Below are positions 34,644 through 38,907 of a stretch of DNA of 52,398 nt, piece after piece (within the stretch, counting starts at the first letter, position 1; every line of letters begins with the position of its first letter). The DNA comes from Bifidobacterium breve (lineage in GTDB: Bacteria; Actinomycetota; Actinomycetes; S36-B12; UBA5976), in the NCBI GenBank assembly GCA_945866135.1, contig CAMBGF010000003.1, positions 1 through 52,398 of the forward strand, read 5' to 3'. The notes under the pieces are model-generated. The model searched no databases. It saw only the letters and a list, made by a program, of their open reading frames with translations, and was not told the origin of the DNA. The translations under genes were made by a program, and so were the position numbers.

Positions 34644-35162
34644 GTGAGCACTGACCCACGTGGCCCACATGCTTGGGATAGATTATGGGCGCCGCATCGC
34701 AAAGAGTACTTAGTTGAAGAAGCTGGGAACTACGACATTGATTCCTGTCCATTTTGTATTGCGCAAACAGTTGATGATCCCACTGGTTTAGTGGTATTCC
34801 GCGCCGCACATGCCTTTGTGGTTATGAATAAGTATCCGTATAACAGTGGGCACATTTTGGTCTGCACAAATCGTCACGTTGCAACATTTGATGAATTGAA
34901 TCCTGATGAAATGCGCGAGGTAGGTGAACTTACTGCCCAAGCAATGCGTACTTTACGAGTGGTCAGTAATGCCCAAGGATTCAACATTGGATTAAACCAG
35001 GGTTCCGTTGCAGGAGCGGGCGTCGCAGATCATTTTCATCAACACGTAGTACCGCGCTGGTCACACGACATTAATTTCATGCCAATTGTTGGCGGCACTA
35101 AAGTATTGCCGGAGTTGATTGAAAGAACTAGGGAATTGCTTTCAGAAAGCTGGAGTAAATAA
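34644..35162 (+). CDS. HIT-domain nucleotide phosphorylase/hydrolase
   Basis: CPFCIAQ..., YNSGHILVCTNRHVATFDEL, HFHQHVVPRW histidine triad. Confidence 0.92.
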   Translation: MSTDPRGPHAWDRLWAPHRKEYLVEEAGNYDIDSCPFCIAQTVDDPTGLVVFRAAHAFVVMNKYPYNSGHILVCTNRHVATFDELNPDEMREVGELTAQAMRTLRVVSNAQGFNIGLNQGSVAGAGVADHFHQHVVPRWSHDINFMPIVGGTKVLPELIERTRELLSESWSK

Positions 35163-36179
35163 CAGCGAAGAGCTTTTTGAGTTTCGCAAAGTCGCGGCGG
35201 GTGTAAGTTCACTGGCAATAATGATCGTGGGTGAATCTAACTTAGTATCAACTTTAGAAACCTCACCATTTTTGATCATCAGCAATTCTTCTTGATTCTG
35301 GTCGCCCCACATCCGAGCAATCTCTTCAGTGATCACAATCCCAATTCGCTCCTGCGCATGCGCCACATCAGTTGTCGATTGCGCGTCTACCAAACTCGGC
35401 AGCCACACTGGAGCTAAGTTTGCAATCCAGCTGGAAAACACTCGGATACCGACTTTGAAATCTATCGGCGTAATTGAAACAACATCAGGATGTAACCACG
35501 CCGACTCTAGTTTGGTGACACTTATTGGCAGCCCGGCTTGATGGTTAGCTAAGGTTGCGTCGTCTAAGCCGGAATACGCCAAATGATCAAACAACTCTTC
35601 CCGAGCGGTGCTAGTTATTGCGATGTGCTCAGGATCAGCAGAAACGGTAATCCAATCGGGCGCCGTGCCAGTTTGAATTTCGCTGGTCAATAAGTCGTAG
35701 ATCCCAGCCAGTGAGGATTCATCGTCTGAGTCAATTGGCAAATATCGAATCATAAGATCCGGCTCCATGGTGCGGATAGCAATGGCGCTAAGTTCATCGA
35801 AATCTGCTCGGCCATGAACAGTGTTAGTTGCTAGAAAGTGCCGAGGCAGCGATTGGTCGCGCGCTTGTTGCCAGAGTATGAAGGTTTCGCGACCAACTCC
35901 GCTACTCCCATCTAGGGCCACAACCAGAGCGTCACATGATTGGACAATGCGAGCGTCAATTTGGGATTGCGAATGGGTGACTATTGCAACCTTTGGCATT
36001 GCTGGGAATCGCATCACAGTTGGAGAAGTTGAAACGAGTTGTGCACCCAAATTGGCGCAAAGTTGTTGCAAATCTGCAGTGTCTGAGGTAACCAAATAGA
36101 TCAAGACGTGCGGCTGCCCAGACTCTGCACTGGCACTGGGTAACATCGACATATCCCTACGAATCGTAGTGGTCAACAT
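35142..36179 (-). CDS. Degenerate EF-G-like (pseudo-GTPase) protein
   Basis: [49 protein letters not shown] parallels the EF-G segment [37 protein letters not shown].GADF; no P-loop, DxPGH or NKxD. Actual start may be internal (MSMLPSA, ~36152). Confidence 0.55.
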   Translation of the reverse strand: [345 protein letters not shown]

Positions 36180-36197: not shown

Positions 36198-36806
36198 GTG
36201 CTAGATAACCCAAAATCTCGGCGTTCCTTGGCTCATTTAGTTGACCCGATTGCCAAACTTTTAATCAAGGCTCGGATTACTCCGGATGCTTTAACTTGGT
36301 TTGGCGCCGGCGCCACGTTAGTAATTTCGGTGGTTTTTCTTGCGCAAGGCGATTTTTTACTCGGCGCGTTATTGTTTGGAGCTTTTGGTTCAATTGATTT
36401 GCTCGACGGCACCATGGCTCGAATGCTTGGAACATCGGGGGCGTGGGGAGCGTTTCTGGACTCCACTTTGGATCGAGTTTCCGATGCCGCAGTAATTTGC
36501 GGAATTTGTTTTTACTACGCGAATAACGATTTGCCTAATAGCAACTTAGTAGTAAGCGCTGGAGTCATTGCCTTAGTTATGGGCTTGATGACTTCCTATG
36601 CTCGCGCAAAAGCGGAATCCCTAAATGCAAAGTGCACAATCGGAATAGCAGAACGCGCAGAGCGAAATATATTGATTTGGATATCACTACTAATCACAAG
36701 TTTGGTTACCGATGTAATGAGTTATGCATTTGTAATTCTTGCGGTTGTTTCTACAATTACCGTGATCCAGAGAATTGTTTACGTTCGTAAACAATTAGTT
36801 TCATGA
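36198..36806 (+). CDS. pgsA: CDP-alcohol phosphatidyltransferase (phosphatidylinositol-phosphate synthase type)
   Basis: CDP-OH-P motif DLLDGTMARMLGTSGAWGAFLDSTLDRVSDA; synteny with patA and pimA. Confidence 0.9.
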   Translation: MLDNPKSRRSLAHLVDPIAKLLIKARITPDALTWFGAGATLVISVVFLAQGDFLLGALLFGAFGSIDLLDGTMARMLGTSGAWGAFLDSTLDRVSDAAVICGICFYYANNDLPNSNLVVSAGVIALVMGLMTSYARAKAESLNAKCTIGIAERAERNILIWISLLITSLVTDVMSYAFVILAVVSTITVIQRIVYVRKQLVS

Positions 36807-37720
36807 ATCTCAAATCCACCGCGATTGATGCTTCTTATTGGCTTGGTTGGCACCTCTTTTGGCGGCTTCCAGCTCGACTCTCGTACTGGTTTTTCGATAA
36901 GAGCGCGATCGTAGTCTGGAAACGCGAAATTAAAGGAGTCCGTCAACTGGAACTGAATTTGGCTCGAGTGCATGGTTACACGCAAACTGATCCGCGAATT
37001 CGAGATTTAAGTCTGCTTGCTATGCGCAGTTACATGCGTTACTACTGCGAGACGTTCTTGCTCCTGCGATGGAGTAAGGAAAAAATTTTGCGCACTGTGC
37101 AGGCCGAGAATGTTGAACCGCTGCAAACTGCATTGAAATCTGGTGGCGCAGTACTTGCTCTGCCACATCTGGCAAATTGGGATTTAGCCGGGGCTTGGGC
37201 TGCGCTGTATTTTGGCTCAGTGTGTTCCGTTGCCGAGCGCTTAAGGCCAGAAGGGGTATTCCAAAAATTTTTGGCTATGCGAGCTGCTCTTGGCGTAAAA
37301 CTCATGCCATTAACGGGCGAGGGTGGCACGTATGAATTTCTTAGAGATCACGTGAATCAAGGTGAGCTGGTCGCACTTCTGGGTGATCGAGATGTTGCAA
37401 AGAGTGGAATGAGTAATGAATTCTTTGGACATCGTGCATCGATTCCAATCGGTCCAGCGTTGCTGGCTCTTGACACTGGTCGACCACTTTTTACTTGTGC
37501 GCCTTGGTATGACGGCGAAAACATGGTGATTACTTTTGATAACGAAATTGAATTTGACCGAAGTCCAGTGCAAGGTCGGGAGCGCCTGCGCCGAGCACAG
37601 GAAGTCACCGCTCAAGTTCTAAGTAATTTCGAGACACACATTGCTGCTCATTCAAGTAACTGGCATCAATTGCAGCCGATTTGGCCAGACTTAGTTGCGA
37701 ATCCTGAGACGAGCAAATGA
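36803..37720 (+). CDS. Phosphatidylinositol mannoside acyltransferase (LpxL/HtrB-like)
   Basis: GGAVLALPHLANWDLAGAWAAL, GVKLMPLTGEGGTYEFLRDHVNQGELVALLGDRDV, FFGHRASIPIGPALLAL. Confidence 0.88.
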   Translation: MNLKSTAIDASYWLGWHLFWRLPARLSYWFFDKSAIVVWKREIKGVRQLELNLARVHGYTQTDPRIRDLSLLAMRSYMRYYCETFLLLRWSKEKILRTVQAENVEPLQTALKSGGAVLALPHLANWDLAGAWAALYFGSVCSVAERLRPEGVFQKFLAMRAALGVKLMPLTGEGGTYEFLRDHVNQGELVALLGDRDVAKSGMSNEFFGHRASIPIGPALLALDTGRPLFTCAPWYDGENMVITFDNEIEFDRSPVQGRERLRRAQEVTAQVLSNFETHIAAHSSNWHQLQPIWPDLVANPETSK

Positions 37721-38907
37721 GAATCGGAATTGTTTGTCCATATTCCTGGGATATTCCTGGTGGAGTAAGCGCCCACGTAAATGATTTAGCGCAAGCACTC
37801 ATTCGGATGGGACATTATGTGAGCGTGTTAGCACCAGCAGAATTTGATGAGCTACTTCCCGATTTTGTTGTCTCAACTGGAAAGCCGCGGGCAGTTAAAT
37901 ACAACGGCTCTACTGCCCGACTGAGTTTTGGTCCACTGGTAGCGCGCAAAGTTTCGAAGTGGATCGAAGAGGGTGAATTCGATGTGCTGCATGTGCACGA
38001 ACCACTTTCGCCAAGTTTGTCAGTATTGGCGTGCTGGGCCGCTAATGGACCGATAGTTGCGACTTGGCATTCTGCAATGGATCGCTCCCGCATGATGTTG
38101 ACGTTATCCAAACTCGGGCAAACCGCAATGGAAAAAGTTTCGGCTCGGATAGCAGTTAGCGAGGCAGCTCGCGCTACTTTAATTAAGCACGTCGGCGGCG
38201 ACGCAGTAGTCATACCAAATGGTGTTGACGTTTCTTCGTTCACCAAAGCCACTCCAATGTTTGGTTGGCCAGGGCAAAACATGTCGATCGTGTTTTTAGG
38301 TCGCGGTGACGAGCCACGTAAAGGTCTTGAGATTCTCGTTGATGCTTATACGCAAATTCGAAAGATTTTTCCAAATGTCAGATTGCTCATTGCCGGCCCA
38401 GGTGAACCAGCGGATACTTTAGAAAAGCTTTCTAAAGTTGATCGATCAAGTGTCACAGTGCTTGGCATGATCGCGCCACAAGATAAACCAAGTGTGCTCG
38501 CCTCTGGCACGATTTATGTGGCTCCAAATACTGGCGGAGAATCTTTTGGAATTGTTTTATTGGAAGCTATGGCAAGTGGTACGCCAGTGGTAGCAAGTGA
38601 CCTGGAAGCATTTAAACGAGTTCTAGATTTTGGGCGAGCCGGCATAACATTTGAAAACGAAAATTCGGATGATTTGGCCAAGGTTGTTTGCCAGTTACTC
38701 GGTGATGAAGCAAAACGCACTGAGTTAATTGTCCAGGCAAGACTGCGAGCAGCTGAGTTTGATTGGAATGTCGTGGCGAATGAAATCGTTAATGTCTATG
38801 AATCCGTGCGCGTCCCGGGCGTTAAAGTTGAACCAGACTTGACGGGACAATTTATGGGAAGACTTGCACGTGGTCGCATCACACCAGAGCCTCGCGGTGA
38901 GCTATGA
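37717..38907 (+). CDS. pimA: Phosphatidylinositol alpha-mannosyltransferase (GT4)
   Basis: MRIGIVCPYSWDIPGGVSAHVNDLAQAL, IPNGVDVSSF, GGESFGIVLLEAMASGTPVVAS. Confidence 0.92.
   Translation: MRIGIVCPYSWDIPGGVSAHVNDLAQALIRMGHYVSVLAPAEFDELLPDFVVSTGKPRAVKYNGSTARLSFGPLVARKVSKWIEEGEFDVLHVHEPLSPSLSVLACWAANGPIVATWHSAMDRSRMMLTLSKLGQTAMEKVSARIAVSEAARATLIKHVGGDAVVIPNGVDVSSFTKATPMFGWPGQNMSIVFLGRGDEPRKGLEILVDAYTQIRKIFPNVRLLIAGPGEPADTLEKLSKVDRSSVTVLGMIAPQDKPSVLASGTIYVAPNTGGESFGIVLLEAMASGTPVVASDLEAFKRVLDFGRAGITFENENSDDLAKVVCQLLGDEAKRTELIVQARLRAAEFDWNVVANEIVNVYESVRVPGVKVEPDLTGQFMGRLARGRITPEPRGEL

Follow-up and report, generated by a model that had tools for sequence, protein, structure and literature searches.

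The window analysed here, a 52,398-nt stretch of DNA, contains a gene that almost certainly encodes an elongation factor EF-G2 (FusA2) reduced in situ. Its nucleotide pocket is destroyed, while purifying selection maintains the core of the G domain together with the G' subdomain and a small domain II. We propose, with a probability of about 0.5, that the reduced protein docks without nucleotide on the bL12 stalk or factor site of the ribosome and would serve there as an occupant without catalytic activity.

The gene lies on the minus strand within an open reading frame of 345 aa (35142-36179) that had been pointed out in an earlier note on this DNA. The frame itself stands, but the start does not: a conserved ATG is found 27 nt further in (36152-36150). 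This start is the more likely one because the pattern ATG-[AT]CG-AT(G/C) is kept there in almost all homologues, while the codons upstream are not. The protein therefore probably comprises 336 aa (35142-36152, stop codon 35144-35142). The order of genes at the locus is thrS, HIT, pseudo-GTPase, pgsA, phosphatidylinositol mannoside acyltransferase and GT4 glycosyltransferase. The gene for the HIT-family nucleotide hydrolase/transferase (34644-35162, plus strand; PF01230, E=2.6e-13) is convergent and overlaps the 3' end of the pseudo-GTPase gene by 21 nt. On the other side, 45 bp separate the likely start from that of the divergent pgsA, which encodes phosphatidylinositol phosphate synthase (36198-36806, plus strand; NF045883, 190.7 bits, cut-off 170). 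The acyltransferase (36803-37720, plus strand; NF005919, 298 bits, cut-off 209) and the glycosyltransferase, PimA-like by position (37717-38907, plus strand; PF13692/PF13439), follow. The layout, convergent with HIT and divergent from the phosphatidylinositol-synthesis genes, is thus as the earlier note had described it. The source genome assembly measures 1.28 Mb and is 79% complete.

An AlphaFold2 model was built from an alignment of 19 sequences without templates (pLDDT 88.4, pTM 0.88). The top Foldseek matches of the model are all EF-G (best E=1.2e-19), and VIA-align places its residues 9-336 onto EF-G residues 4-403 (Z 24.3, 320 residues), a match that runs through both domain I and domain II up to the C-terminus. 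In this model, the pseudo-GTPase is an EF-G domain I with its G' insert, followed by a remnant of the domain II barrel. An unrelated fold is ruled out by the model, Foldseek and the structural alignment. Domain I, consisting of the G-domain core and the G' subdomain, spans residues 9-250 (35403-36128, minus strand) according to the model, the PDB alignment and hhalign to EF-G2. The G' subdomain (residues 135-225; 35478-35750, minus strand) carries the acidic residues D189 and D198 and shows, together with the helix in front of it, the highest conservation in the protein. Domain II is shrunken (residues 251-336; 35145-35402, minus strand) and contains the invariant R280, which corresponds to R334 of Mtb EF-G1. 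Domains III-V are absent, as the protein stops at EF-G residue ~403 and the HIT gene overlaps its stop codon. The AlphaFold and Foldseek comparison proposed in the earlier note thus returns an EF-G domain I-II fold without nucleotide motifs; the claimed domain I topology and the absence of domains III-V hold, but the retained domain II (residues ~251-336) had been overlooked.

Sequence comparisons and genomic position indicate that the parent of the protein is EF-G2, not canonical EF-G. While a Pfam search with the window protein found nothing convincing, the NCBIfam EF-G2 model NF009377 matches residues 82-219 of the 345-aa frame (E=1.4e-8) better than the EF-G models do, with a score of 33.6 bits that does not reach the whole-protein cut-off of 890 bits. 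Each of the 26 sequences in a mixed alignment (A3) also matches NF009377 individually. An hhalign comparison of 19 genus sequences with 11 full-length EF-G2 of the same order gives 99.5% probability (E=1e-22), and the two share a genomic slot. Direct origin from canonical EF-G is ruled out by the slot, which is that of EF-G2, and by the family searches, in which the EF-G2 model gives the better fit; a chance open reading frame is ruled out by the homologues and their dN/dS. The EF-G resemblance first noticed by eye is therefore above chance. Its residue pairing agrees with a multiple alignment that includes canonical EF-G, and the homologues, which could have lacked any similarity to translational GTPases, match EF-G2. 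The family assignment is retained, with the parent corrected to EF-G2.

To compare the nucleotide motifs, we used an alignment that includes canonical EF-G from the order and follows the residue numbering of Mtb EF-G1. The former P-loop (residues 22-30, TSDTADLQQ; 36063-36089, minus strand) has no Gly-Lys-Thr, whereas full-length EF-G2 reads GPSGAGKTT at this position, and the K26 equivalent is never Lys in the 19 genus sequences. The former NKxD (residues 109-112, TNTV; 35817-35828, minus strand) likewise never has Asp at the D141 equivalent. The D84 equivalent (DTPG) is lost and switch I deleted in all 19. None of the G1, G3 and G4 motifs or G2/switch I of EF-G-type translational GTPases is thus present in any of the sequences, extending across the genus the loss of the P-loop, DxPGH and NKxD that had been recognised in the window protein. 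The former pocket positions vary freely. With a G-domain fold, no G1, G3 or G4 and a gene under selection, the protein qualifies as a pseudo-GTPase, and we infer that it is nucleotide-independent.

Other residues of EF-G are retained. In Mtb EF-G1, a salt bridge formed by D103 and R334 links domain I to domain II (PMC8446442); their equivalents are the invariant D74 and R280, the latter present in 19/19 genus sequences. Three glutamates of the EF-G G' subdomain, E221, E225 and E228, touch the L7/L12 (bL12) stalk (PMC8446442). The E221 equivalent is acidic in 18 of the 19 sequences and that of E228 in all of them (here D189 and D198). The E225 equivalent is non-acidic, and is already Ser in the full-length EF-G2 of the order. 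Asp81 (LDG; 35910-35912 of the window) is invariant in the short family, as in canonical EF-G (FDG); full-length EF-G2 of the order have Ser or Ala at this position.

EF-G2 scores over the cut-off in 80 of 118 sampled genomes of the class. Most of the 30 EF-G2 loci of the class that were read have a divergent pgsA, and HIT is convergent where the fetched stretch reaches it. Within the same order, families f4, f5, f7 and part of f6 carry a full-length EF-G2 with intact motifs in this slot. In the class sample outside the order, EF-G2 has a full or near-full frame among the matches listed, apart from contig-split or interrupted cases. As the comparison called for in the earlier note shows, other actinobacteria have full-length EF-G2 with a P-loop as the syntenic homologue between HIT and pgsA. 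The HIT-pgsA slot is therefore ancestral by synteny, and the gene shrank in place. In a 7-Mb relative outside the order, an EF-G2 frame (G136 C1:6711879-6713486) is broken by TAA and is a possible pseudogene.

The gene is carried by 22 of 23 genus genomes, the exception being 65% complete. It adjoins pgsA in 22/22 loci and HIT in 21/22, with the remaining locus cut by a contig end, and the frame is open in all 22 genomes. A full-length EF-G2 over the NF009377 cut-off was found in none of the 23; the full-length EF-G matches in the genus score as canonical EF-G and belong to a separate gene. Among pairs whose dS could be used, the closest have dN/dS ratios (Nei-Gojobori) of 0.08-0.13. The helix that precedes G' (0.79) and G' itself (0.70) are the most conserved regions, and conservation falls to 0.44 in domain II and to 0.37 in the remnant of the switch. 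These values indicate that the gene is held by purifying selection and is not decaying. The gene is missing entirely from several genera of the family, and its role is therefore dispensable there. No EF-G2 relic was detected by tblastn in the ~1-kb HIT-pgsA gap of G047 and G059 (L077 and L076), nor does this gap contain a long opposite-strand frame. In genus g8 of the same family (L181 in G029, L182 in G034), HIT is directly followed by pgsA; a full-length EF-G2 with P-loop lies elsewhere, at a locus that has neither pgsA nor HIT alongside, and was either moved or acquired.

Our survey of 166 genomes of the order shows short forms in families f1 (g1, g3), f3 and f6 (g13, g17, g21, g86, g87, g89), and those that were read sit in the slot. 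On a quick LG+G4 tree of thrS, HIT, pgsA and the acyltransferase, which raised long-branch warnings, the full-length label changes at least nine times, six of them on strongly supported branches alone. We estimate approximately seven truncations on the best tree and, counting strongly supported clades alone, at least four; both counts assume that domains III-V cannot be regained and include some loose tree labels. G258, labelled as lacking the P-loop, is cut by a contig end and carries GPPSSGKS, while G209 and G215, labelled as full, encode only 474 and 437 aa. The latter two (L192 and L190) have an intact P-loop and stop after domain II or III; their frames end ~500 nt before HIT and may be fresh truncations or assembly errors.

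The sister genus g17 displays a graded series. G048 and G244 have full-length EF-G2, whereas five genomes (G241-G243, G245, G246) encode forms of ~367 aa that consist of domains I-II, keep the P-loop and TKLD, and have switch I and DTPG deleted. Their dN/dS is ~0.03. In G056, GSAGSGRS replaces the P-loop, with the lysine changed to arginine. The loss of switching and translocation therefore preceded that of nucleotide binding. As the switches and domains III-V are gone in the ~367-aa forms while the P-loop and TKLD persist, selection there was not for GTPase switching.

Progressive loss of domains and motifs, and complete loss of the gene more than once within the family, could also be expected of a pseudogene on its way to disappearance, as in the sister genera. 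This is very improbable given the dN/dS of ~0.1 between diverged pairs and the still lower value in g17. The frames open throughout the genus, the clean ends abutting or overlapping HIT and the confident fold obtained from the homologue alignment point in the same direction. It is also improbable, though less so, that nucleotide is still bound in a remodelled, non-canonical pocket. The model keeps β1, helix α1 and the core sheet, and the truncated g17 relatives retain the P-loop and TKLD; however, the equivalents of K26, D84 and D141 are absent in 19/19 sequences, and the positions of the former pocket show free variation where a new site would be conserved.

A more serious alternative, which we nevertheless consider rather unlikely, is that the EF-G2 remnant was repurposed away from the ribosome for a structural or regulatory role, in the extreme case in the phosphatidylinositol mannoside pathway. 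No translocation or GTPase parts are left, domain II is shrunken and the neighbourhood with pgsA is strict. This neighbourhood, however, is inherited, as full-length EF-G2 is found beside pgsA class-wide. The G' region, which contacts bL12, is among the most strongly conserved parts, and Pfam detects no membrane or lipid-binding domain in the protein. The earlier suggestion of a scaffold for membrane-lipid synthesis was drawn from adjacency alone and is unsupported, because the place beside pgsA is the ancestral EF-G2 slot.

Docking on the ribosome, in line with the ribosome-binding role that the earlier note also suggested, fits the pattern of retained parts in the sequences. EF-G2 has here lost both switches and the domains that push tRNA and mRNA (III-V), followed by the nucleotide pocket. 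According to this proposal, the G' subdomain, perhaps together with domain II, would still dock on the bL12 stalk and factor-binding region, with no nucleotide and no cycling. As an occupant or tether, the docked protein may modulate the access of translation factors or mark idle ribosomes. The retained role would be a part of EF-G2 function that never needed GTP hydrolysis, since EF-G2 of M. smegmatis has no ribosome-dependent GTPase activity. If EF-G2 sits on the ribosome rather than moves it, domains III-V, the switches and the pocket would be free to go while G' stays. The non-acidic E225 equivalent and the much reduced domain II argue against stalk docking, and the conservation of G' could serve another partner. 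The job of the retained piece probably needs neither fuel nor movement.

Comparison with known proteins sets the pseudo-GTPase apart. EF-G2/FusA2 (EFG II subfamily; NF009377) shares its slot beside pgsA, and M. smegmatis EF-G2 (PDB 9k0z) has the same domain I-II fold (Z 23.7) with recognisable sequence in the G-domain core and G'. EF-G2, however, has ~700 aa with domains III-V and an intact P-loop, DTPG and TKxD, none of which are found in the 336-aa protein. Laboratory N-terminal fragments of canonical EF-G (residues 1-404/406; PDB 6bk7, 5vh6) adopt the same fold and arrangement of domains I-II. Canonical EF-G (FusA) shares the D103-R334 salt-bridge residues, but has the nucleotide site, switches and domains III-V that are missing here. 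The truncated EF-G2 of g17 likewise consists of domains I-II only and occupies the same slot; it has lost only the switches and keeps GPxxSGKT and TKLD, whereas the window protein has lost the motifs as well. Ski7, a degenerate eukaryotic relative of the translational GTPases, likewise functions without the usual GTPase cycle. It differs in belonging to the eRF3/Hbs1 subfamily, in having another partner and in keeping more of its architecture. Our literature searches on truncated or pseudo EF-G found no description of an EF-G remnant that comprises domains I-II and lacks a nucleotide site, and those on EF-G with Nanopelagicales found nothing relevant. While the EF-G2 family is known, its recurrent pseudo-GTPase form is new.

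A review describes the role of actinobacterial EF-G2 as ambiguous, given the absence of GTPase activity in the M. smegmatis protein (PMC9067457). We tentatively suggest that a nucleotide-independent and non-translocating binder of the bL12 stalk or factor site may have evolved from EF-G2 several times within one order of streamlined aquatic actinobacteria. The repeated reduction to domains I-II, with the switches, the nucleotide pocket and the tRNA-mimicking domains discarded, constitutes a natural deletion series that reveals on which part of EF-G2 selection acts. It also makes the role of EF-G2 approachable with a small protein of ~340 residues. If the proposal is true, the selected function of EF-G2 in actinobacteria would be passive ribosome binding rather than GTP-driven movement.
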